DNA of 64,000 nt. Source: Desulfobulbus sp. GTDB taxonomy: Bacteria; Desulfobacterota; Desulfobulbia; Desulfobulbales; Desulfobulbaceae. The stretch's first letter is position 1. Every line of letters begins with the position of its first letter. The notes under the pieces are model-generated. The model did no database searches. It was not told the DNA's origin and saw only the letters and a list, made by a program, of their open reading frames with translations. Position numbers and translations under genes: made by a program. Location of the stretch: positions 62,001-126,000 of the forward strand of contig WQZH01000001.1 in assembly GCA_009780825.1 (NCBI GenBank), read 5' to 3'. Below, piece by piece: positions 1,890 through 33,962 of this stretch.

Positions 1890-3472
1890 TGTATAAACGT
1901 CTTCTCTTCCCGTTCGTTGCGGCGATGGCGCTTATCTGCGCAATGACGCCGTCCGTCCACGCCAATCCGAATCCGGCCGCGGCAAAAAGCCCGCCCCTCA
2001 AAGTGACTTCCCGCTGCGACGTGGCTGCCCTCGCCCCGGATGTCGCTGTGACCGTCACCGTGCTGGTCGCTATTGATACGCCTGCAATCCAAACCGCTGA
2101 TAAACGCCCGCCCGTGGCCGTGAGCCTGGTTATCGACCGATCCGGTTCAATGGAGGATGCCAAAAAGCTCGATTACGCCAAGAAGGCCGGTAAAACTCTG
2201 ATAAAAAGCCTTGGACCGGATGATCAGTTTGCCCTCACCATCTACAATGACCGCGTGCAGGCGCTGTATCCCATGGCCAAAGTGACGGATAAGGAAAAAC
2301 TGTTCAGACTGATCGACTCCATCACGGCTGACGCCACCACCTTTTTGTCCGGAGGGCTGGAGGAGGGCATCAACCAGCTTAAAGGCATGGGCAAGGAAGG
2401 CCCTTGCCGGGTCATCCTGCTTTCCGACGGACTGGCCAATCGCGGCGTCACCCAAGCCGAGCAGGTGGCCGCCATCGGCGCGAACGCCAAAAACAAGGGC
2501 ATCACCGTCACCACCGTCGGCCTCGGGCTTGATTTCAACGAAGACCTCATGCAGCTTCTGGCGCAACGTTCCGGCGGGCAGTATTATTATGTCAAGGATT
2601 CCGAGGACCTGCCCGCCATGTTCACGCAGGAACTCAATCTCACCGCCGCCCTGTTCACCCGCAACCTGAAAGCCGTGTTCATTCCCCACGGCAAGGTCAG
2701 CGACGTCAAGGTCTACGGCTACAGCAACGCCGTCAAGGACCAGGCTACGGACATCGAGATGAGCGATCTTTCTTCCGGAGAGCAGCGCCAAATCCTGCTC
2801 AGCATGCAAGTGAAGCCGGAAGCGGCCGCCGGTGAGCAAAAATTGGGCGCCTTGCGCTTAAGCTATGTCGATCCGGCAGAGGGTGACACGAGAACCGTTG
2901 ATCTTCCCGTGGAACTCAAAATCATTGCCGATGAAAACGCCCGCAAGGAAGAGACCGCCAAACAGCGGGACGCCATCCAGCAGGTCCGTGACGAAGCCAT
3001 CCTGCTTGAGGCCGAACAGGCTCATGTGACCGCCATCAACGAACTGGAGAAAGGCAACGTGACGGCAGCCAGGAAGATCCTGTTGGAACAGAAGAGCGTT
3101 CTGGCCCAGGCCGCTCCGTCCAACAAAACCGTGGCTAGCAAGATGGAAGCCATAGACCAGGACGAGCAAAACCTTGAACAGGCCGGTCGTGATCGGTCCA
3201 TGCTCCAAAAAATGAGCAAGGCCAGCAAGTCCTCTGCCTATCAGAGTGCCCAGGGCAAATCACAGGGCCTGATGCTCCAGAAGGGCGACAAGGGCTTTAT
3301 GGTCGAAAAGCTGCAAAACGCGCTCAAGGAGAAAGGTTTTTATGCCAAGGACGTGGACGGCGTCTACAGCCAGAACGTTGAGGATGCGGTCAAGGCGTTT
3401 CAGCGGGCCAAATCCATCAATGCGGACGGCATCGCCGGACCGGCCACGCAAGATGCTTTGGGGATCAGGTAG
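1890..3472 (+). CDS. Secreted von Willebrand factor A domain protein with C-terminal peptidoglycan-binding (PG_binding_1) domain
   Basis: Signal peptide MYKRLLFPFVAAMALICAMTPSVHA; MIDAS-like VIDRSGSMEDAKKLDYAKKA; C-term GDKGFMVEKLQNALKEKGFYAKDVDGVYSQNVEDAVKAFQ. ORF is open from 1745; start chosen at the signal peptide. Confidence 0.85.
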
Positions 3473-3596
3473 TCGTTTTGCATAAACCGCATTGCCGATG
3501 CGCAGGGCAACAGCCGCCGCCAATCCAGGAGCGCTGTGCCTCTCTCGGAGCTGATTGCCGAATCGGAGCGCACCAACCACAAGAAACCAGGCGAAC

Positions 3597-4604
3597 ATGA
3601 AAAAGATTGTGAAAGCAGGCGTAATAGGTGTTGGATATCTAGGGCGTTTTCATGCCCAGAAATATGCGGCCATGGCGGATGTCGAACTGATCGGCGTAGC
3701 CGATTCCGATCCGGCGCGGGCCCGGCAGGTGGCTGATGAATGCGCCACCCAGCCTTTCAGCGACTACCATGCCCTGCTCGATCAGGTCGATGCGGTGTCG
3801 GTCGTGGTGCCGACCAGCCTGCACCACGAGGTGGCCAAAGCCTGCCTGCGGCAGCGGGTCGATGTCCTGGTGGAAAAACCCATTACCACCACTTTGGGAG
3901 AAGCCGACGATCTGATCCGGCTGGCCCATGAACAGCAATGCATTCTCCAGGTGGGGCATCTGGAACGGTTCAATCCGGCGGTGCTCGCCATGCGGCCCCT
4001 GCTCACCCATCCCCTGTTCATTGAGGCGCACCGGCTCAACGTGTTCAAGGAACGGGGCACGGATGTGGATGTGGTGCTCGATTTGATGATCCACGACATC
4101 GACATCGTGCTCTCCATCGTCAATTCGCCGATCGTCTCGATCCTCACCGCCGGCGCTCCGGTCATCACGCGCGTGACCGATATCGCCAATGCCCGCCTGA
4201 TCTTTGCCAACGGCTGCACGGCCAACATCACAGTGAGCCGCGTTGCCATGGAACCCTTACGCCGCATGCGCATCTTTCAACCCGGCCAATACCTGTCGGT
4301 TGATTTCGGCCGCAAGGAAATCATGACGGCGCGGAGGCAACCCGGTAAAGACGGCGGCACCCCGGTGCCGGAAATCGACAAGTCGGCCTTCCCGGAACAC
4401 GACGCCCTTGAGATGGAACTCAGCGATTTTGTTCACCATGTCCAAGAGCGCAGCCAACCGGACGTCAGCGGGGAAGAAGGACGGCGCGCCCTGGATGTGG
4501 CCCTGCAGGTGATTGCCCAGATCCATGACAACCGCGATCGGATCGCGCAGATTCTCCAAGACGAGGGCCGCGCCGATCTGCTGTCCTGGCTGCCGGCCAA
4601 CTGA
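3597..4604 (+). CDS. Gfo/Idh/MocA family oxidoreductase
   Basis: MKKIVKAGVIGVGYLGRFHAQKYAAMADVELIGVADSDPARA Rossmann motif; VEKPITTTLGEADDLIRLA; immediately upstream of lpxB. Confidence 0.93.
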   Translation: MKKIVKAGVIGVGYLGRFHAQKYAAMADVELIGVADSDPARARQVADECATQPFSDYHALLDQVDAVSVVVPTSLHHEVAKACLRQRVDVLVEKPITTTLGEADDLIRLAHEQQCILQVGHLERFNPAVLAMRPLLTHPLFIEAHRLNVFKERGTDVDVVLDLMIHDIDIVLSIVNSPIVSILTAGAPVITRVTDIANARLIFANGCTANITVSRVAMEPLRRMRIFQPGQYLSVDFGRKEIMTARRQPGKDGGTPVPEIDKSAFPEHDALEMELSDFVHHVQERSQPDVSGEEGRRALDVALQVIAQIHDNRDRIAQILQDEGRADLLSWLPAN

Positions 4605-4610
4605 CGACCA

Positions 4611-5798
4611 ATGATCGCCTCCGGACAGAGCGACCAACATCCAGAAGTCATGATCGTGGCCGGCGAGGCTTCGGGCGATCTGCACGGCGCCCATCTGGTC
4701 CGGGCCATGCTGGCCCTGGACCCGCGTCTGCGCTTCTGCGGCATGGGCGGCCTGGAATTGCGCTCTGTCGGGGTGGAACTGCTGGCTGATGCCGCCAAGC
4801 TGGCCGTGGTGGGAGCGGTGGAGGTGCTCAGCCATCTGGGCGATATCCTCCGGGCCCGCCGCGCCCTGATCGAACGCATGCGGGCCCGCCGACCTGACCT
4901 GCTGATCCTGATCGACTACCCGGACTTCAATCTCCTGTTGGCCAAAAAAGCCAAACAGCTCGGCATCCCGGTCTTTTATTACATCAGCCCCCAGATCTGG
5001 GCCTGGCGCACCGGCCGGATCCACTCCATCAAACGCCTGGTCGACCGGATGGCGGTGATCCTTCCCTTCGAGCCCGCCTTTTACGCCCGTCACGGCATGC
5101 AGGTCGATTTTGTCGGTCATCCGCTGCTCGATTCGGTCAAGCCGGGATTGTCCGCCGATACGTTCAAGAGCAAGCTCGGCATCGAACCGGGCCAAACCTT
5201 GGTGGGACTCCTGCCCGGCAGCCGGCGCAAAGAGATCGCGGTTCTGTTGCCAATTTTCCTGGCCGCGGCCGGCCGCATCGCCCAGAACATGGGCCAGGTC
5301 GTCTTTCTCCTGCCCCAGGCGCCCACGATCAGCCGCGCCCTGCTCGACGAACACGGCCTGGCCGCCTGGCAGGAGCGCCTCGATATCAAGGTGATAACCG
5401 AAGACCGGTACGCGGCGATGGCGGCCTGCAACGCGGCGGTGACGGCATCAGGCACGGCGGTGCTGGAACTGGGCATTCTGGGAGTGCCGACCGTGGCCGC
5501 CTACCGCATGAGCCCCCGTACCTACTGGCTGGGGCGGCTGCTGATCCAGAGGCTGCGTTTTTTTTCCCTTATCAACCTGATCGCCGAACGCGAAGTCATC
5601 CCCGAACTCCTGCAGGATGGAGCCAGTCCCGATCAGATAGGACGGGAAACGCTGAGCATTCTGCAAGACGGCACCAGGCGGCAAGCCCTACTGGAAGGCC
5701 TGGCAGAGGTACGCCGCCGTCTGGGCAGTCCGGGCGCCTCGGAGCGGACCGCTGCCGCCGCCCTGGACCTGCTCGCAACCCGAGGAGCCAATGGATGA
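4611..5798 (+). CDS. lpxB: Lipid-A-disaccharide synthase
   Basis: VAGEASGDLHGAHLVRAM, CGMGGLELRSVGVELL, YYISPQIWAWR, LLPGSRRKEI, SGTAVLELGILGVPTVAAYR. Confidence 0.96.
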   Translation: MIASGQSDQHPEVMIVAGEASGDLHGAHLVRAMLALDPRLRFCGMGGLELRSVGVELLADAAKLAVVGAVEVLSHLGDILRARRALIERMRARRPDLLILIDYPDFNLLLAKKAKQLGIPVFYYISPQIWAWRTGRIHSIKRLVDRMAVILPFEPAFYARHGMQVDFVGHPLLDSVKPGLSADTFKSKLGIEPGQTLVGLLPGSRRKEIAVLLPIFLAAAGRIAQNMGQVVFLLPQAPTISRALLDEHGLAAWQERLDIKVITEDRYAAMAACNAAVTASGTAVLELGILGVPTVAAYRMSPRTYWLGRLLIQRLRFFSLINLIAEREVIPELLQDGASPDQIGRETLSILQDGTRRQALLEGLAEVRRRLGSPGASERTAAAALDLLATRGANG

Positions 5799-10712: not shown

Positions 10713-10870
10713 TGACTGTCATCCTCTGTCAGAATTCCGTCTACACGACATAACACCTCCCATCCCCCGATTGTCGCGCATGCACCGTCACGGATGCGAC
10801 TTTACCCAGTGGCAACCATCGGTGTCAACAGACATTGCGCCTCTGCCCCTGCTGTGGTAGAAGAGTGGCT

Positions 10871-13066
10871 ATGCATTATGCCCCTTTCTCCCCGATCTCC
10901 GATCAGGCAACGCCCCCATCCCCGACTCCATTGGCCGAGCAACTCAATCGTGCGCAATACGCCGCCGTCAACCATGGCGACGGCCCCATCCTGGTCATAG
11001 CTGGAGCCGGATCAGGCAAGACCCGCACCCTGGTCTACAGGATGGCGCATCTCATCGCCCGGGGTGTGACGCCCGAATCGATTCTGCTGCTCACCTTCAC
11101 CCGCCGCGCCGCTCAGGAAATGCTCAGCCGCGCCGGTGATCTGAGTGCCGGTTCCTGCCGCCGAGTCATGGGAGGAACCTTTCACGCCACCGCCAACATC
11201 CTGCTCCGCCGCCATGGGCATCATCTGGGGCTAGGCGCCAATTTCACCATCATCGACCGGGGCGATGCCGAAGGCATCATCAACCTGCTCAAATCATCAC
11301 TGGGCATGGCCGGAGCCGGCAAACGCTTCCCCTCAAAACGGGTGGTGATGAACCTGATTTCCGGAGCAATCAACAGGGCGACCACCATCGAGCAACTCGT
11401 GCATGGTGATCATATCCACCTCATTGAATTTACAAACGATTTCTATACAATCGCCGAACATTATCGTCAGTTCAAGCTGGATCACGGCCTGATGGATTAC
11501 GACGACCTGCTCATCAACTGGAAGAGGCTGCTGGCCGAGTCGGAAGCGGCCCGGAACGAACTGTCCACCCGGTTTCAGCACATTCTGGTGGACGAATATC
11601 AGGATACCAACCTGCTGCAGGCCGAGATCGTCCGCTTGCTGGCCTTTCGCCACCACAATGTCATGGTGGTCGGCGACGATGCCCAATCGATCTACAGCTT
11701 CCGGGGAGCGGATTTTTCCAACATCATGCGGTTTCCCGAGCAATTTCCAGGCACCGCCATGGTCAAGCTCGAAGAAAATTACCGTTCCTCCGAGCCGATT
11801 CTGCAACTGACCAATGACATCATCGCCCATGCCGAAAAAAAATTCACCAAAACGCTCTTTACCAGTAAAACCGGGGGCAATAGGCCGCAACTGGTGGTAG
11901 CCCCCACCGAAGCCGCCGAGGCCCGTTTCGTGGTCGAGACAATCGAACGACACCGGCAGGAAGGCGTGCCGCTCCATGAAATCGCGGTGCTGTTCCGCTC
12001 CGGTTATCACTCGTTCAAGCTGGAAATCGAACTGGCCAGCCACGCCATCGACTTCGACAAGCGCGGCGGACTCAAGCTGACTGAATCAGCTCATGTCAAG
12101 GATTTGCTGTCTTTTTTCCGGGTGGTGATCAACCCCTGGGATAACCTGAGCTGGAACCGCATCCTGTTGCAGCTCGACCAGGTCGGCCCCAAGACAGTGC
12201 AAAAGATCCTGGCAGCCCTCAAGGCAGCGGACTCCCCCTTCGCCGCCCTGGACGCCTATCGGCCGAGTCCGAACTGGAAAGCCCAATTCGAGGTGCTGAC
12301 CGCCACCATGCGTCGGTTGCTGGAGCCAGGTTTGACCCCTTCCGATCAATTCGATCTGGTCATGCAGTATTACGGGCCGGTATTCGAAAAGATGTATTAC
12401 GATGATTACCCCAAGCGACGCCGGGAGCTTGACCAGATCAAAGTCCTGGTCACCGGATACGACAACCTGCAAGCCTTTGTCGATGACACCGCGCTCGACC
12501 CGCCCGAGGTTGGCGCTGGCGCTGATGTCTTCGCCGCCGACATGCGACTCGTGCTCTCCACCATCCATTCGGCCAAGGGGCTGGAATGGGACACGGTCTT
12601 TGTCATCGGGCTGGCCGAAGGCCGCTTTCCCCATAGCAACGCTACTCCTGGCGAACAGTGGGAGGAAGAACGGCGGCTTTTGTATGTGGCCGCGACCAGG
12701 GCCAAAAACCAACTGTACCTGAGCTATCCGCGGGAACTGGTCACCCCCGACCGGCAGCAGATACGGAGCGCGATGTCGCCTTTTCTGCGGGAGATCAGCC
12801 CCGGCCTGTACCACACCATCGACCGGGCCGGCACCAGGAGCGAACCGCTGATGAGCCAGTACCAACCTGTCCTACCCCCGACATCCGCAGCCGCAAGAGC
12901 TGCCTCCCGGCCGATTTTTTCCGAGGGGATGCGAGTCAGCCATGCCTTTTTCGGCCCCGGACGGATCGCCGCAATTCCGGGACCACGCCGGGTGGAAGTC
13001 CATTTCGACCGCCACGGCAGCAAGATTCTCCATCTCGACTACGCCAAGCTCGATCTCCTCGAATAA
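10871..13066 (+). CDS. ATP-dependent DNA helicase, UvrD/Rep family (SF1)
   Basis: LNRAQYAAVNHGDGPILVIAGAGSGKTRTLVYR, VDEYQDTN, VGDDAQSIYSFRGAD, STIHSAKGLEW, RRLLYVAATRA. Confidence 0.95.
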   Translation: MHYAPFSPISDQATPPSPTPLAEQLNRAQYAAVNHGDGPILVIAGAGSGKTRTLVYRMAHLIARGVTPESILLLTFTRRAAQEMLSRAGDLSAGSCRRVMGGTFHATANILLRRHGHHLGLGANFTIIDRGDAEGIINLLKSSLGMAGAGKRFPSKRVVMNLISGAINRATTIEQLVHGDHIHLIEFTNDFYTIAEHYRQFKLDHGLMDYDDLLINWKRLLAESEAARNELSTRFQHILVDEYQDTNLLQAEIVRLLAFRHHNVMVVGDDAQSIYSFRGADFSNIMRFPEQFPGTAMVKLEENYRSSEPILQLTNDIIAHAEKKFTKTLFTSKTGGNRPQLVVAPTEAAEARFVVETIERHRQEGVPLHEIAVLFRSGYHSFKLEIELASHAIDFDKRGGLKLTESAHVKDLLSFFRVVINPWDNLSWNRILLQLDQVGPKTVQKILAALKAADSPFAALDAYRPSPNWKAQFEVLTATMRRLLEPGLTPSDQFDLVMQYYGPVFEKMYYDDYPKRRRELDQIKVLVTGYDNLQAFVDDTALDPPEVGAGADVFAADMRLVLSTIHSAKGLEWDTVFVIGLAEGRFPHSNATPGEQWEEERRLLYVAATRAKNQLYLSYPRELVTPDRQQIRSAMSPFLREISPGLYHTIDRAGTRSEPLMSQYQPVLPPTSAAARAASRPIFSEGMRVSHAFFGPGRIAAIPGPRRVEVHFDRHGSKILHLDYAKLDLLE

Positions 13067-26915: not shown

Positions 26916-28220
26916 TTATTCGGAGTAAATCTGCCAGCAGTTACGGCCTTTCTTCTTGGCCTCGTACATGGCGATATCGGCATGACGGAGCATGGTCTCG
27001 GCATCCTGGCAGTCGATGGGAAAGACCGAGATGCCGATACTGGCGCCGATGAAGCAGACGTGATCGCCCACCTCGATCGGCTCGTTGAGTGATTCGATCA
27101 CCTTCTGGGCTACCAGAATGGCGCCGTCGAGCGTCTCGGTGCTTTCCAGCAGGGTGACAAACTCGTCGCCCCCCAGCCGACACACCGAATCCGAGGCCCG
27201 CAGGACGTTACGCAGCCGTTCGGCCACCTGCATCAGGACCATGTCGCCGACTCCGTGACCGAACTGATCGTTAATCGGCTTGAACCGGTCGAGATCGACG
27301 AACAACAGACACAGGATGCGGCCGTAACGCCGGGCCAGGGAGACGGCCTGGGGCAACCGGCGCCGGAAATAGTTGCGGTTGGGAAGATTGGTGAGCGGGT
27401 CGTGATTGGCCATATAACGGATCATCTCCGCCGCTTCCTGCCGCTCGGTGACGTCCTGGAAGACCAGCACCCCGCCGATCAGCCGATTCCCCTGGAGAAT
27501 CGGCGTTGAGCGGAAATCCGCGGGAAAGCTGGTGCCGTCCTTGCGCAGCATCCTGACTTCGTCGAAGCAGGTCATGGTCTTCAAGTCCGGCTGGGTGAAA
27601 TACGGGCAACAATCTTCGAAAAAATCCTCGCTGCCGGGCAGGGAGATCTTGAACATCTCCCGGTAGTCACGCTTCCTTGCATCCTTGATGCTGCAGCCCA
27701 GCATCCTCAGGGCGGCAGGGTTGACATAGCTGATCCGCCCCTTGTCGTCGACCCCACAGATGCCGTTGGCGGCGGCGTCAAGGATCATCTCGTAGTTGCG
27801 GGACAGCAGCTCCAGTTCCTGTTTGCCCCGATGCGACCCCATAATATAACGGATGCGGTTCTTGAACACCGGCCAGCGCAACGGCTTGCGGATATAATCG
27901 GCGGCGCCGGTGCTAAAGGAACGTTCGACGCTCTGCTCGTCATCAAGGGCCGTCACCATCAGAACCGGCGGCGGATCGGCCATGGAGGAACGGATGTGTT
28001 CGCACACGCTCAGGCCATCGATGCCCGGCATGGCGATATCGAGAATCACCAAGTCGAACGACTGCTCCGCCAGCTTTTCCAAGGCCGCATGCCCATTCTC
28101 AGCTTCAACCACAGTATAGCCCTCGCCTTCGAGAAACTGGCGCATGAGCATACGGATAACCTCGTCGTCATCGACGACCAGAATGACTGGAGCAGAGCCA
28201 GCGAGCAAGGAAACCGTCAT
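26916..28220 (-). CDS. Response regulator REC-PAS-GGDEF (diguanylate cyclase)
   Basis: VVDDDEVIRMLMRQFLEGEGYTVVEAENG, DLVILDIAMPGIDG; PAS region; RASD-SVCRL-GGDEF. Confidence 0.93.
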   Translation of the reverse strand: MTVSLLAGSAPVILVVDDDEVIRMLMRQFLEGEGYTVVEAENGHAALEKLAEQSFDLVILDIAMPGIDGLSVCEHIRSSMADPPPVLMVTALDDEQSVERSFSTGAADYIRKPLRWPVFKNRIRYIMGSHRGKQELELLSRNYEMILDAAANGICGVDDKGRISYVNPAALRMLGCSIKDARKRDYREMFKISLPGSEDFFEDCCPYFTQPDLKTMTCFDEVRMLRKDGTSFPADFRSTPILQGNRLIGGVLVFQDVTERQEAAEMIRYMANHDPLTNLPNRNYFRRRLPQAVSLARRYGRILCLLFVDLDRFKPINDQFGHGVGDMVLMQVAERLRNVLRASDSVCRLGGDEFVTLLESTETLDGAILVAQKVIESLNEPIEVGDHVCFIGASIGISVFPIDCQDAETMLRHADIAMYEAKKKGRNCWQIYSE

Positions 28221-28317
28221 AAGCGAAAACGGGAAGAAGGGAGAAGGATATCGGATAGATTACATCAGATAGATCGTGGTTCTTCTCTATCTATTCTATT
28301 GTATAGATTACGGTCAA

Positions 28318-29994
28318 TCACGCAAGCAGTTCAGCAAAAAAACGTTTGACCCGGTCGGCAGCACGGATAATCTGACCGTGGAGCTGGTCGACCTGCTGCA
28401 TATTGCCGCTCTTGCTCACCTGTTCCGCCGACAGACACAGCTGTGCCAGTTCCTCGGCTCCAAATTGGCTGCTGCTGCCTCGCATCGTGTGCATTATCTT
28501 GCTGACCGCTTCGAGGTCTCTGGTGCGCACAGCCCGTTCCAGCTCGGCAAGACGCCGGTCAAGCGCATTCAGGAAGATGCTGACCGCTGGCATGATGTTG
28601 CCTACATTATCGCGCAGACGCTGTAAAACCGCTTCGTTAACAGTCATCGGCGCCGGCGCGGGCTGTTCGGTCACGGCATCCGCCCTTGCTCCCGGAACGA
28701 TGCAGTTGCGCAACTCAGGCAGCCACCGGGCAAGCACCGCCTGCAGTTTGTTGAAGTCCAGCGGCTTGACCAGATAATCCACCATCCCCACTTCCCGACA
28801 CCGTTTTTGCGCGGCCGCCGTAGCATCGGCGGTCAGGGCGACCACGGGAGGAGCCGGATATGCGTGTTGCTCCGCCTCCTCCACAATGACCCGGGTGGCG
28901 GCAAAGCCATCGAGCACCGGCATCTGACAATCCATGAAAATAAGATTGAACCGGTTGGTCCGGCAGAGGTCGACGGCCTCCTGACCATTGCAGGCTATCA
29001 CGATATCGACATCAGTCCGTTGAAAGGTCTCCGCCATGACGATACGGTTGGTTTCCTCGTCATCGACGATCATGATGCGCAGATTGCACGGAGATCCGGG
29101 AGCAGTCGGCGATGCCGCGGCTGAGGCCGTCGCATCCGCCGTTCCTGCCAGAGCCACCGGAGCGACTGTCTGGGGTCTTTGCCGTGCCACCGGCAGGGAG
29201 ACAACGAACCAGAACGTTGCGCCGTGCCCGTATTCGGACTGCACACCAAAGGTCCCCCCCATCAGCTTGATGAGTCGGGCGCAGATCGACAATCCCAGGC
29301 CGCTGCCGCCATAGAGGCGGGTCGATGAACTGCTCGCCTGGCTGAACGGCTGAAACAGTTTATCGATCGATTCGCGCGGGATGCCCATCCCCGAATCTTC
29401 CACCTCGAACCGGAGCCGCTCTCTTCTGCTATCTGCCTCTTCCCGGCTTACCCGCAGGGTAATCGTGCCCTGCTCGGTGAATTTGACCGCATTGCCGAGC
29501 AGATTGACCAGCACTTGGCGCAAGCGATAGCTGTCGCCCAGATAGTGGTGCGCAAGTCCGGAGTCGATCTCGGCGGTGACCGCCAATCCCTTGCTCCTGC
29601 CGGTCACCATATGCAACGACAGCAACTGTTCAAGCAGGGCCCGCAGATCGAAGGGTTCGATGTCCAAAGTCATCTTCTCCGCCTCAATCTTGCTGAAATC
29701 GAGCAAATTGTTGATCAGGATGAGCAGACTGGAAGCCGAAGTGCGGATCAGTTGGGCAAAATGCTTTTGCCGGGGCTGCAGTTCGGTATCGAGCAACAGC
29801 TCGGTGATCCCGATGACGCCGTTCATCGGCGTGCGGATCTCGTGGCTGATCATGGTCAGAAAATCAGACTTGGCCCTGTTGGAGGAATCGGCCTGCCGCG
29901 CCTTGAGCCGCAAGGTGCGGTTTTCCTGCTCCAGTCGTTGGACCTTGGCTTCAAGCTCTGCAATCCGGTTCTGGGCGAACATACTGTCTTCCAT
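28318..29994 (-). CDS. Hybrid histidine kinase (coiled coil-HisKA-HATPase-REC-HPt)
   Basis: [63 protein letters not shown]-term HPt [20 protein letters not shown]. Confidence 0.93.
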
Positions 29995-29997
29995 GGC

Positions 29998-32900
29998 TCA
30001 GGAAAAAAGAGAGAGTTGGCGTACCGCAGGCTTTTTCCGCTGGGCCCGCGGCTGGAGGATCGGAGAAAAGGCGTCGGCCGGGAGCTCGTCCAGAAACCGG
30101 GATGGCTGGCGGGACTCGACCGGAGTGCCATACAAGGCGCGCGATCGGCACCATGTGCAGATCAGGTTGGTGGTGGTTCTGGTGACACCCACGTAGAAAA
30201 GGCGCCGTTCCTCTTCCAGTTGGCGGCGCTGCGTTTCCGGAGATTCCGATACATGCGGCGCCAGCGGCAGCAGCCCTTCCTCGCAACCGGCGATGAAGAC
30301 CACGGGGAACTCCAACCCCTTGGCCGCATGGAGGGTCGACAGAGTCACCGCCTCGGCGCGCGGATCGTAGAGCACGGAATCGCTGAACCGGTGCAGATGG
30401 CTGGCAAAATCGGCAAGCGACCCAAAACTTAAGGCCAGTTCACGCAAGCGCTTTACGTCCGGCTGCTCGGGATCGAACCCGTACCGGGCGCAGAGGGCAA
30501 CGAGCACCTCTGCCGCCGGCGCGGTCGCCGACAGGGCGCGCATCCGCGCAAGCATCTGATGAAACGGTGCGAGTACCGCGTCAATGGGACCACCCAGAAG
30601 CGGCATCGCGCCAAACTCGTTTTCCCGTTGCCGAACCATCTGGCACAGAACGAGGCGCACCATCCGCACGGCCTGCTCGTCGATCCCCTGTTCCCGGCGG
30701 ACCAGGGCCAGCAGATGTTCCGGCTCGGCCCGGTTCGCGAGCAGCAGCAGCCAGCAATACAACAGGCGGCACTCTCCCCTGATGTAATAGGCTTCAAGGT
30801 CAACCAGCTGAAAAGGAATGCCCCGCTCCGTGAGCACCTTGCCGATCGTCTCGGCCTGGCGGCCGATACGGTACAGGATACCGATGTCGCGCAGACCAAC
30901 GGCGGCGCCGCCGGTGTGATCGAACCGTTTCAAGCTGCGATGCGAGGTGCCGCCCAGGCGGATCTCAATCTGATCGGCGATGAAGCGGGCTTCCTGGTCG
31001 GGCGCGGCACATTCCTGGCGCTGGATGGTCCCCTGCCGCGAGACGTGGGCCTGCATCGATGCCGGCGGCAGCGAGTGAACATTGTGGCTGATCAGTTGGG
31101 CGGCGGCGCCGACGATAACCGGAGCGCTGCGATAGTTGCGGACCAGGGAGTGCACCTCGGGATGCATTTCCCGGATAAATGCGTACAACCACTGCGGATC
31201 GGAACCGCGAAACCCGTAGATCGCCTGATCCGGGTCACCGATGGCAAACACGGTCGAGGTCTGCGCCAGAAGCGCGACCAAGGCGTACTGCGCCTCGTTG
31301 ACATCCTGGAATTCATCGACCAGAAGATGGCGGCCGGTGGCACCACGGATGGCGGCAGCCTCTTCGCCATCCTGGCGCAGCATCTCCACGGTACGTGGCA
31401 CCACCGCCTCGATGTCGATCAAGGATCGTTCCACCAGGGCCGCGAGGTAACGGTGCGTTTCGGCGGTATGTTCGCCGGGATTGGAGCGGCAAAACAGATC
31501 GCCAAGATCGCGGGAAAAACGCTCCCGCTTTTTGGCATTCCATCCGGGAAAGATCTCTTCGATCAAGGCGGCCCGTTCCTCTGGTCCCGCCACCTGCAGA
31601 CCGGGCGTGCAGCGCCTCAACTGGGCCAGGCAATACCCATGGAAGGTGGCGACCGTCACCGCCCCCCGAGCCGCGCCCGAGTTCTGCAAACGCTCCCTGA
31701 CCTCTTCCGCCGCCTTGTTGGTGAAGGTGATCACCGTGCAGGCCTGCTCAACCTGCGCGCTCAGCCGTCGCACCCGGCTCACCAGGGTATTGGTCTTGCC
31801 GGTGCCTGGCCCGGCCTGGACCAGAATCAGCGCGGCCGCACTGTCCACCGCCTGCTGCTGCTCGCTGTTCAGTTGCTTGAGCGTTGGTCTTGTCCCCGCA
31901 TCCTGCTTCTCCTCCCGTTGCCCCAGCCGCTGCCGTTTCTTGCCCATATTTTGGGACGGGCCGGCAACGGGGCCAAACAGGCTGGATTGTCCGCACAGTT
32001 CTGCGCGTTCTCCTTCGGAAAAAACAGTAATCACGCCGAACTCGCCATCATAGCCGGGCTTGCGGATCACCCGGTTCGATCGCACCCGCTCAATCGCCTC
32101 GGCCAACAGCGCGGACCCTTTGGCCTGGATTGCCTCCACAGGCGTCTTGAGCAGGAGCCCGAACTCGGAGCCGAAGATGTTGATCAGGCGGATATAGCCT
32201 TCCATCACCTTCTTACTCGCCGGCCCGCAATCGAGCAGCTCGGCCACAATCTCCGCCAGGGGAACGAGGCTGTGCACCTGCGGACTGCCCGGCGGCAGCA
32301 CCGGCTGCTCCCGGTCGGCCAGTTCCATGACCCGGTGGAGCACTCCGATGGTCAGGGGCTTGCCGCAAACCGGACAGAGCCCTCCAGATGCGCGGGTTGC
32401 ATGGGGTTGCAGGCAGACTTGACAGGTGCGATGCCCGTCGCAGTGGTACTTGCCTTCTTCGGGATAAAACTCGACCGTGGCGGCGAAAACCTGCTGGCCA
32501 GCCTCGTTGACCGGCATCCGTATCGCCTCGCGCATGGAGAAATAATCAAAGCCGGTGGTGAAAATATTGGCTTCGCGGCCCAATTTTGCCGGTGAATGAC
32601 AGTCCGAATTGGAAATGAGGGTAAAACGATCCAAGGCGGAGATCAGTCGATTCATCTCCGGGTCCGAAGAAAGACCGGTTTCCAAGGCAAATATGTGGGG
32701 GCTGAGAGCGCCGAAACATTCCTCGATCGAGTCGAATCCCGATTTCGAACCGAAAAGCGAAAACCAGGGTGTCCAAATGTGGGCAGGGACGAGGAAACCC
32801 TGGTGAGCCTTTTCCAGCAAAATTTCCAGAAGATCGCGGGAGTCGAGACCGAGGATCGGCCGGCCGTCAGCGGCGATGTTGCCCAAGGTGGCCAGGGTGG

Positions 32901-33285
32901 TGTTGAGGCGGCGGGCAGCGTCGAAATCCGGCACATAGAGCAGGTTATGCACCTTGCGGACCTTGCCGCCTCGCTTGTAGATGGAGCTGATCTCGGCGCT
33001 GAGGACAAAACGGATGGCGGTCAACTCCATCGCCGGCCGAATGCCCTGCGGCAGCAGATCGCCAAGCTCTCCGGCCGGATCGGCCTTCAGGCGGAAGAAT
33101 CCCGGTTCGGCCGGCTCCAGGCACTCGTAGAGATGGGCAAACCAGCCGGGATGGGTGAAATCGCCGGTGCCCACCACGCTGATGCCCTTGACCGCGGCCC
33201 AGGCGGCCAGCCCATACAGATTGCTGGCCTTGCTGGTGGCCCGGGAGTAGTGGCTGTGGACATGGAGGTCGGCGATGTAGTTCAC
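29998..33285 (-). CDS. EndoQ-like PHP endonuclease fused to UvrD/Rep SF1 helicase
   Basis: N-term VNYIADLHVHSHYSRATSKASNLYGLAAWAAVKGISVVGTGDFTHPGWF (PHP/TIGR00375 type), CQVC...CPVCGKP Zn site; C-term LNSEQQQAVDSAAALILVQAGPGTGKTNTLVSRV, AIGDPDQAIYGFRGSD, STLHAAKGLEFPVVF. GTG start overlaps the nadD stop (GTGA). Confidence 0.88.
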   Translation of the reverse strand: MNYIADLHVHSHYSRATSKASNLYGLAAWAAVKGISVVGTGDFTHPGWFAHLYECLEPAEPGFFRLKADPAGELGDLLPQGIRPAMELTAIRFVLSAEISSIYKRGGKVRKVHNLLYVPDFDAARRLNTTLATLGNIAADGRPILGLDSRDLLEILLEKAHQGFLVPAHIWTPWFSLFGSKSGFDSIEECFGALSPHIFALETGLSSDPEMNRLISALDRFTLISNSDCHSPAKLGREANIFTTGFDYFSMREAIRMPVNEAGQQVFAATVEFYPEEGKYHCDGHRTCQVCLQPHATRASGGLCPVCGKPLTIGVLHRVMELADREQPVLPPGSPQVHSLVPLAEIVAELLDCGPASKKVMEGYIRLINIFGSEFGLLLKTPVEAIQAKGSALLAEAIERVRSNRVIRKPGYDGEFGVITVFSEGERAELCGQSSLFGPVAGPSQNMGKKRQRLGQREEKQDAGTRPTLKQLNSEQQQAVDSAAALILVQAGPGTGKTNTLVSRVRRLSAQVEQACTVITFTNKAAEEVRERLQNSGAARGAVTVATFHGYCLAQLRRCTPGLQVAGPEERAALIEEIFPGWNAKKRERFSRDLGDLFCRSNPGEHTAETHRYLAALVERSLIDIEAVVPRTVEMLRQDGEEAAAIRGATGRHLLVDEFQDVNEAQYALVALLAQTSTVFAIGDPDQAIYGFRGSDPQWLYAFIREMHPEVHSLVRNYRSAPVIVGAAAQLISHNVHSLPPASMQAHVSRQGTIQRQECAAPDQEARFIADQIEIRLGGTSHRSLKRFDHTGGAAVGLRDIGILYRIGRQAETIGKVLTERGIPFQLVDLEAYYIRGECRLLYCWLLLLANRAEPEHLLALVRREQGIDEQAVRMVRLVLCQMVRQRENEFGAMPLLGGPIDAVLAPFHQMLARMRALSATAPAAEVLVALCARYGFDPEQPDVKRLRELALSFGSLADFASHLHRFSDSVLYDPRAEAVTLSTLHAAKGLEFPVVFIAGCEEGLLPLAPHVSESPETQRRQLEEERRLFYVGVTRTTTNLICTWCRSRALYGTPVESRQPSRFLDELPADAFSPILQPRAQRKKPAVRQLSLFS

Positions 33286-33962
33286 AGAGGCTCCTGCCAG
33301 CCGTAGAGACGATGGCGCCTGATGTAGGCCAGCACCGGCGGCGGCAGGAAGACCGGCGCCAACCCCCGGGCCAGTTCTTCCCGGATGGCCGAAGAAGAAA
33401 CCGGCAGCGCGATATCGTCGAGAAAAACCGCTGTTCGCCCGGCCTGGTTCTGCCACCGTTCCTGGCCAGCGTGATAGCTAAAGGGTGGATGCAGGGCGGC
33501 GAGCGCCCGGGCAACGGCCGCCGCGTCGATCGCTTCCCGTTGGATCACAATCAGGTCGATCAGGGTAAGAAGCTCCTCTATCCGGTGCCAGTGGGGCAGA
33601 TCAAGCAGCGAATCAGCACCGATAATCAGGCTGTACCGGCATGATCCTTTTTCCTGGATCAGGGCCTGCACCGTGTTGTTGGTGTAGGAGGGCTCCGGCA
33701 ACCGCGCTTCAATGCGGGAACAGCAGATACGCCCCTCGATTCCTTGGCAATCGGCCAAGGCCGCTTCGATCATGGCCGCCCGGTGGGCAAAGGATGCCAT
33801 GGGTTGTTGTTTGTGCGGCGGCAACAGAGCCGGGATGAACAGCAATCCGTCGAGACGACAACGGATAACCACGTGAAGCGCCAGATCAATATGGCCCTGG
33901 TGGACGGGATCGAAGGTCCCGCCGAACAGCCCGACCCTCAGTTCTTCGTCTGGAGCAACCAC
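33282..33962 (-). CDS. nadD: Nicotinate-nucleotide adenylyltransferase
   Basis: RVGLFGGTFDPVHQGHIDLAL, FIPALLPPHK, SLIIGADSLLDLPHWHRIEEL, PVSSSAIREEL. Confidence 0.95.
   Translation of the reverse strand: MVAPDEELRVGLFGGTFDPVHQGHIDLALHVVIRCRLDGLLFIPALLPPHKQQPMASFAHRAAMIEAALADCQGIEGRICCSRIEARLPEPSYTNNTVQALIQEKGSCRYSLIIGADSLLDLPHWHRIEELLTLIDLIVIQREAIDAAAVARALAALHPPFSYHAGQERWQNQAGRTAVFLDDIALPVSSSAIREELARGLAPVFLPPPVLAYIRRHRLYGWQEPL

Follow-up and report, generated by a model that had tools for sequence, protein, structure and literature searches.

A conserved EndoQ-UvrD fusion protein with two putative beta-clamp-binding motifs in Desulfobulbus and other bacteria

The endonuclease Q (EndoQ) proteins of P. 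furiosus, T. kodakarensis, M. acetivorans and B. pumilus nick DNA 5′ of dU, dI and AP sites (PMC4357722, PMC6202378), and the cut leaves a 3′-OH and a 5′-phosphate at the lesion (PMC4357722). The step after the nick is an open question; helicase-assisted removal has been proposed, drawn as one option (PMC4357722). One gene in a 64,000-nucleotide stretch of a Desulfobulbus sp. genome (GCA_009780825.1, contig WQZH01000001.1, positions 62,001–126,000, hereafter the window) encodes an EndoQ-like nuclease and a UvrD-like helicase in a single chain.

The gene had been described from its sequence, before any database search (the sequence-only reading), as an uninterrupted open reading frame of about 1096 codons. 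Its coordinates were exact; the frame comprises 1095 codons and a stop, from GTG at 33285–33283 to TGA at 30000–29998 without interruption, on the minus strand, which the sequence-only reading had left unstated (Table 1). It is complete in its own contig (100% identical, 0 internal stops) and lies in an obgE-proB-proA-nadD run, beginning 4 nt within nadD. A scan of genome contigs recovered 80 loci, the majority of them carrying the entire fusion in one frame, in Desulfobulbaceae, Geobacteraceae, other families of the phylum, several Bacillota, Latescibacterota, Lentisphaerota, Treponema and others, so that the survey of its distribution proposed earlier revealed a widespread bacterial protein of several phyla and not a one-off. 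A frameshift joining two genes, which the sequence-only reading had named as a danger, and an assembly artefact are both ruled out, as dozens of assemblies made independently, and spread over several phyla, contain the identical arrangement in one frame, and the contig copy is intact.

Table 1 Features of the fusion gene and its immediate neighbours in the window.
Feature	Position	Strand	Description or basis
EndoQ-UvrD fusion gene	29998..33285	-	1095 aa, GTG start, TGA stop; single open frame
Shine-Dalgarno-like AGGAG	33291..33295	-	5 nt ahead of GTG start; from sequence
nadD	33282..33962	-	stop codon shares 4 nt with fusion start (GTGA)
Hybrid histidine kinase gene	28318..29994	-	begins 3 nt past fusion stop
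EndoQ part: PHP nuclease and zinc ribbon	31996..33285	-	PfuEndoQ phmmer, fold match, invariant metal ligands
Internal beta-clamp-binding motif QSSLF, aa 433-437 (putative)	31975..31989	-	QxxLF there in 45/55 fused relatives
Disordered linker, aa 438-467, often Lys/Arg/Pro/Ala-rich	31885..31974	-	pLDDT; composition in relatives
UvrD/PcrA-like SF1A helicase part, aa 468-1082	30040..31884	-	profile, sequence, UvrD 2is6 fold match, invariant motifs
C-terminal beta-clamp-binding motif QLSLF, aa 1090-1094 (putative)	30004..30018	-	motif conservation; disordered tail

By sequence comparison, residues 1–430 are an EndoQ homologue, matching PfuEndoQ along its length (phmmer E 5.7e-51). The PHP motifs and the CxxC...CxxC zinc site claimed for this part are present in the translation (DLHVHSHYSRATSK, VVGTGDFTHPGWF, VRKVHNLLYVPDF and CQVC...CPVC), and the PHP metal-binding set of EndoQ (HxH, D, E, H, H, DxH) is complete. 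Alignment of ~120 EndoQ parts (84 fused and about 36 unfused), in which a loss of the metal ligands was looked for, showed that they are kept, with H8, H10, D42, E98, H113, H169, D228 and H230 invariant; D228 is the counterpart of Pfu D193, a residue replaced by Asn in the deposited chains that are bound to DNA. The zinc ribbon carries CPxCG as CPVCG at 304–308, and of its cysteines C288, C304 and C307 are found in 55/55 fused relatives and C291 is Cys in only 41/55. An AlphaFold2 model built from 55 fused homologues (pLDDT 86.1, pTM 0.70), the structure prediction suggested by the sequence-only reading, recovered the EndoQ fold, with Foldseek matches to 5zb8 (TMt 0.88–0.90, rmsd 2.4–2.5) and to the dU-DNA complex 7k30 (TMt 0.88).

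The sequence-only reading had placed this part in the TIGR00375/EndoQ family. Homology to EndoQ stands, but membership of TIGR00375 does not, the profile score being 142.3 bits against a curated cut-off of 326.6 bits, a cut-off exceeded in 0 of the 395 genomes of the window's phylum. Because this cut-off is not reached and Pfam reports no PHP domain for the fusion protein, the EndoQ half is probably missed by routine annotation and such genes are probably named only as helicases, though EndoQ relatives are common in the phylum (255/395 genomes). The shortfall, together with the large distance from archaeal EndoQ (about 32% identity in the fold alignment), would fit an EndoQ part that has drifted to another lesion or structure (a mismatch, an oxidised pyrimidine, an RNA primer or AP sites only) within a MutL/UvrD-like post-replicative pathway, and PfuEndoQ also cuts 5-hydroxyuracil and dihydrouracil (PMC11354406). 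We nevertheless consider such a change of substrate improbable, given that neither the active-site motifs nor those around them vary among fused and unfused members, and that archaeal EndoQ specificity is retained as far afield as B. pumilus.

The C-terminal half is a UvrD/PcrA-like SF1A helicase. The complete set of SF1 motifs claimed for it is present (AGPGTGKT, DEFQD, GDPDQAIYGFRG, NYRS, TLHAAKGLEF and EERRLFYVGVTR) and invariant in 55 fusions, residues 468–1089 match PcrA with E 3e-61, the TIGR01073 PcrA profile matches with E 1.6e-78, and the modelled part retains a complete UvrD fold (match to UvrD 2is6, E 3.7e-38). The curated PcrA/UvrD equivalog cut-offs are not reached (264.8 bits for PcrA, with 911.2 required), and similarity to PcrA 1pjr reaches only as far as residue 662 of 724; the fused helicase therefore lacks the C-terminal Tudor-like extension, the rest of its tail is predicted to be disordered, and a clamp-type motif sits where that extension would be. 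Fused and split helicase halves form one clade (98*) apart from paralogous UvrD/PcrA genes, and on these comparisons the fused helicase is a lineage of its own, distinct from the housekeeping UvrD/PcrA paralogue that its host genomes also encode. One of these paralogues, a second UvrD/PcrA-like helicase of 743 aa encoded elsewhere in the window (10835–13066, plus strand), has the C-terminal extension missing in the fused helicase and is probably the housekeeping copy.

Two putative beta-clamp-binding motifs, overlooked in the sequence-only reading, are the strongest clue to mechanism. QL[S/D]LF or QxxLF is the published bacterial clamp-binding consensus, and QLSLF, the pentapeptide at the C terminus of the fusion, is identical to PolC's own clamp motif (PMC12309361). 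QxxLF occurs between the two enzymes in 45 of the 55 fused proteins (0.55 expected from shuffled segments), within the last 15 residues in 49 (0.6 expected) and at both sites together in 42, the 55 sequences being related and not independent. At the internal site Q433 is conserved in 54/55 and F437 in 50/55, and QxxLF is kept across phyla at 37–40% identity with variable flanking residues. Both sites lie at the edge of or inside stretches of predicted disorder (AlphaFold2 pLDDT <50 over aa 434–468 and 1083–1095), as expected of short linear motifs.

The internal QSSLF, at the end of the EndoQ part, has the position of the EndoQ-type C-terminal clamp motif. A C-terminal PIP box attaches archaeal EndoQ to PCNA (KD 55 nM), which stimulates the enzyme, and bacterial EndoQ homologues have already been noted to carry beta-clamp motifs (PMC4858679). 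A motif of this kind (QLKLF, QMSLF, QQSLF and others) closes most standalone bacterial EndoQs, and in two unfused neighbouring pairs (L057 and L060) each of the two genes has a clamp-type motif at its end; the fused protein thus resembles a head-to-tail union of two clamp-binding proteins. Neither the second clamp motif nor the helicase is described in the papers found by our literature search, which found no paper on an EndoQ-UvrD fusion; most subscription papers lay beyond its reach.

In the EndoQ tree, a starred branch separates 17 standalone proteins from the other 103 rows, of which 84 are fused, 6 are divided between adjacent genes and 13 stand alone, some being truncated at a contig end. 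The EndoQ and helicase trees share their main groups and broadly match; both are quick trees without bootstrap, in which the deep order is uncertain. These sequence trees are most simply read as a single ancestral pairing, after which the helicase was lost or split off in places and some copies passed from one phylum to another. Three members inside the fused clade (L061, L070 and L105) have no helicase sequence nearby, indicating that the helicase can be lost while EndoQ stays. Among the best 150 places listed for the 395 genomes of the phylum, a list biased by E-value, 116 frames are of standalone size and 34 of fused size, and no helicase was seen within about 5 kb of standalone EndoQ. Some departures from the common architecture were also observed. 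Four fused proteins (L116, L117, L127 and L131) are just 960–1038 aa long, with a shorter and weaker-scoring helicase part that is possibly trimmed or inactive; L127 ends in TASLF, without Gln. The 671-aa frame of L130 (4923–6935, minus strand) matches EndoQ and carries QMSLF at its C terminus; it has no helicase match and contains roughly 240 extra residues.

In some 35 Desulfobulbaceae-type loci, every flank of sufficient length preserves the gene order obgE-proB-proA-nadD-fusion-kinase. The gene has different neighbours in a few family members (e.g. the cable-bacteria MAGs L015 and L018) and in other lineages, so the fusion cannot be put down to the chance make-up of a single operon. Directly downstream in the window lie a hybrid histidine kinase and a PAS-GGDEF response regulator (26916–29994, minus strand), and the proximity of the kinase to the fusion is conserved across Desulfobulbaceae. 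In a distant relative (L128) the fusion (2405–4894, minus strand) lies near an RdgC homologue, dnaN (beta clamp) and a gyrB-like gene, the last identified by eye only; an RdgC homologue also adjoins the fusion in L115. In Geobacter MAGs, a NUDIX (MutT-like) gene (L040, 3567–4001, plus strand) overlaps the start of the fusion, which comes after it.

A PHP nuclease with a UvrD helicase is a plausible layout for defence, and the helicase half matches GajB models (best 7.8e-68), which would suit a Gabija-like nuclease-helicase system directed against invading DNA such as uracil- or modified-base phage DNA. The GajB matches, however, reflect general UvrD similarity, being weaker than the match to TIGR01073 PcrA; there is no GajA and no OLD ATPase or TOPRIM in the fusion, and its neighbours are nadD, proA, proB, obgE and a histidine kinase, in an operon conserved across Desulfobulbaceae. 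The fusion is chromosomally inherited and broadly distributed in the phylum, its trees mostly track lineages, and the phage, viral and plasmid collections that were searched yielded no copy; the clamp motifs point to host replication or repair. We reject defence as the best reading on operon context and the lack of phage, viral and plasmid copies, and regard it as very improbable.

The fusion is a real, conserved and functionally coherent variant of EndoQ. We propose, with a probability of roughly 0.7, that it is a single-chain, clamp-tethered alternative excision repair enzyme for deaminated bases or AP sites. The idea of a lesion-nicking and unwinding enzyme, put forward in the sequence-only reading, is plausible and gains independent support from the putative clamp motifs. 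UvrD moves 3′-to-5′ and removes the nicked strand in mismatch and nucleotide excision repair. We infer substrate, polarity, clamp binding and order of events as follows. The EndoQ part would flip out uracil or hypoxanthine (or xanthine or an AP site) and nick immediately 5′ of the lesion, leaving a 3′-OH and a 5′-phosphate on the damaged nucleotide. The UvrD-like part, on its flexible linker, would then enter at the nick and move 3′-to-5′ on the intact strand, peeling off the damaged strand as a 5′ flap, a displacement expected from the known polarity of UvrD. A flap or single-strand nuclease would clear this flap while a polymerase extended the 3′-OH.

The beta clamp is dimeric and has two identical pockets (PMC12309361), and the two QxxLF motifs could hold one or both of them. 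Such a tether would station the protein behind forks or at clamps that stay on DNA, and would allow the 3′ end to be handed to a polymerase bound on the same clamp. We suggest more tentatively that one protein may grip both pockets of a single clamp through its nuclease and helicase ends, incising deaminated bases just behind the fork and unwinding the lesion strand in a glycosylase-free and MutSL-free patch repair, a pathway unreported in the papers searched.

Several observations weigh against the repair reading: the helicase is dispensable in some lineages (L061, L070 and L105), C291 is variable, and the EndoQ part lies far under the TIGR00375 cut-off. The same losses of helicase with retention of EndoQ would be accommodated if EndoQ were the only module active on deaminated bases, with the helicase mainly clearing proteins, extending single-stranded DNA or licensing the scanning of single-stranded gaps behind forks, instead of peeling the nicked strand away. 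EndoQs cut dU and dI in single-stranded as well as double-stranded DNA (PMC6202378), and the clamp motifs suggest a place at replication. Such a division of labour is nonetheless unlikely in our view, since the full SF1 motif set and complete UvrD fold are strongly conserved and a UvrD-like helicase fits the removal of a nicked strand.

Against the repair reading, too, the window's genome contains a UDG-superfamily gene, so uracil repair is not unique to the fusion protein; the lack of EndoV in the window's genome speaks for it. EndoV is also absent from four same-genus genomes. EndoV was found in 9/34 genomes with fused-size and 54/116 with standalone-size frames (Fisher p 0.048, phylogeny ignored and the list E-value-limited). 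Simple replacement of EndoV by the fusion is weakly suggested by this difference and was rejected, as EndoV and fused EndoQ coexist in 9 of the 34 listed genomes.

With clamp motifs on both of its halves, the EndoQ-UvrD fusion names a candidate for the next actor after the EndoQ nick and for the platform on which it would work, and makes the post-nick pathway testable with one protein. It shares with the EndoQs of P. furiosus, T. kodakarensis and Bacillus pumilus the fold, the PHP metal ligands, the zinc ribbon and the clamp-type motif that ends the EndoQ part; the characterised EndoQs, however, are single proteins of about 420 aa (PfuEndoQ, 424 aa), to which the window protein adds a C-terminal helicase and a second clamp-type motif. 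With PcrA, UvrD and Rep it has in common the SF1A motifs and a complete UvrD-like fold, but the fused helicase falls in a separate clade, under the equivalog cut-offs and without the Tudor-like extension. In Gabija GajAB and in AddA/RecB a nuclease and a UvrD-like helicase also cooperate, but their nucleases have other folds (TOPRIM/OLD and PD-(D/E)xK), with no PHP/EndoQ part, and we know of no paired clamp motifs in them. The logic of nicking, clamp-guided placement and unwinding by UvrD is shared with mismatch repair by MutL, UvrD and the beta clamp, whereas in the fusion the nuclease, the helicase and the putative clamp hooks are parts of one chain and the nuclease itself is proposed to recognise the base lesion.
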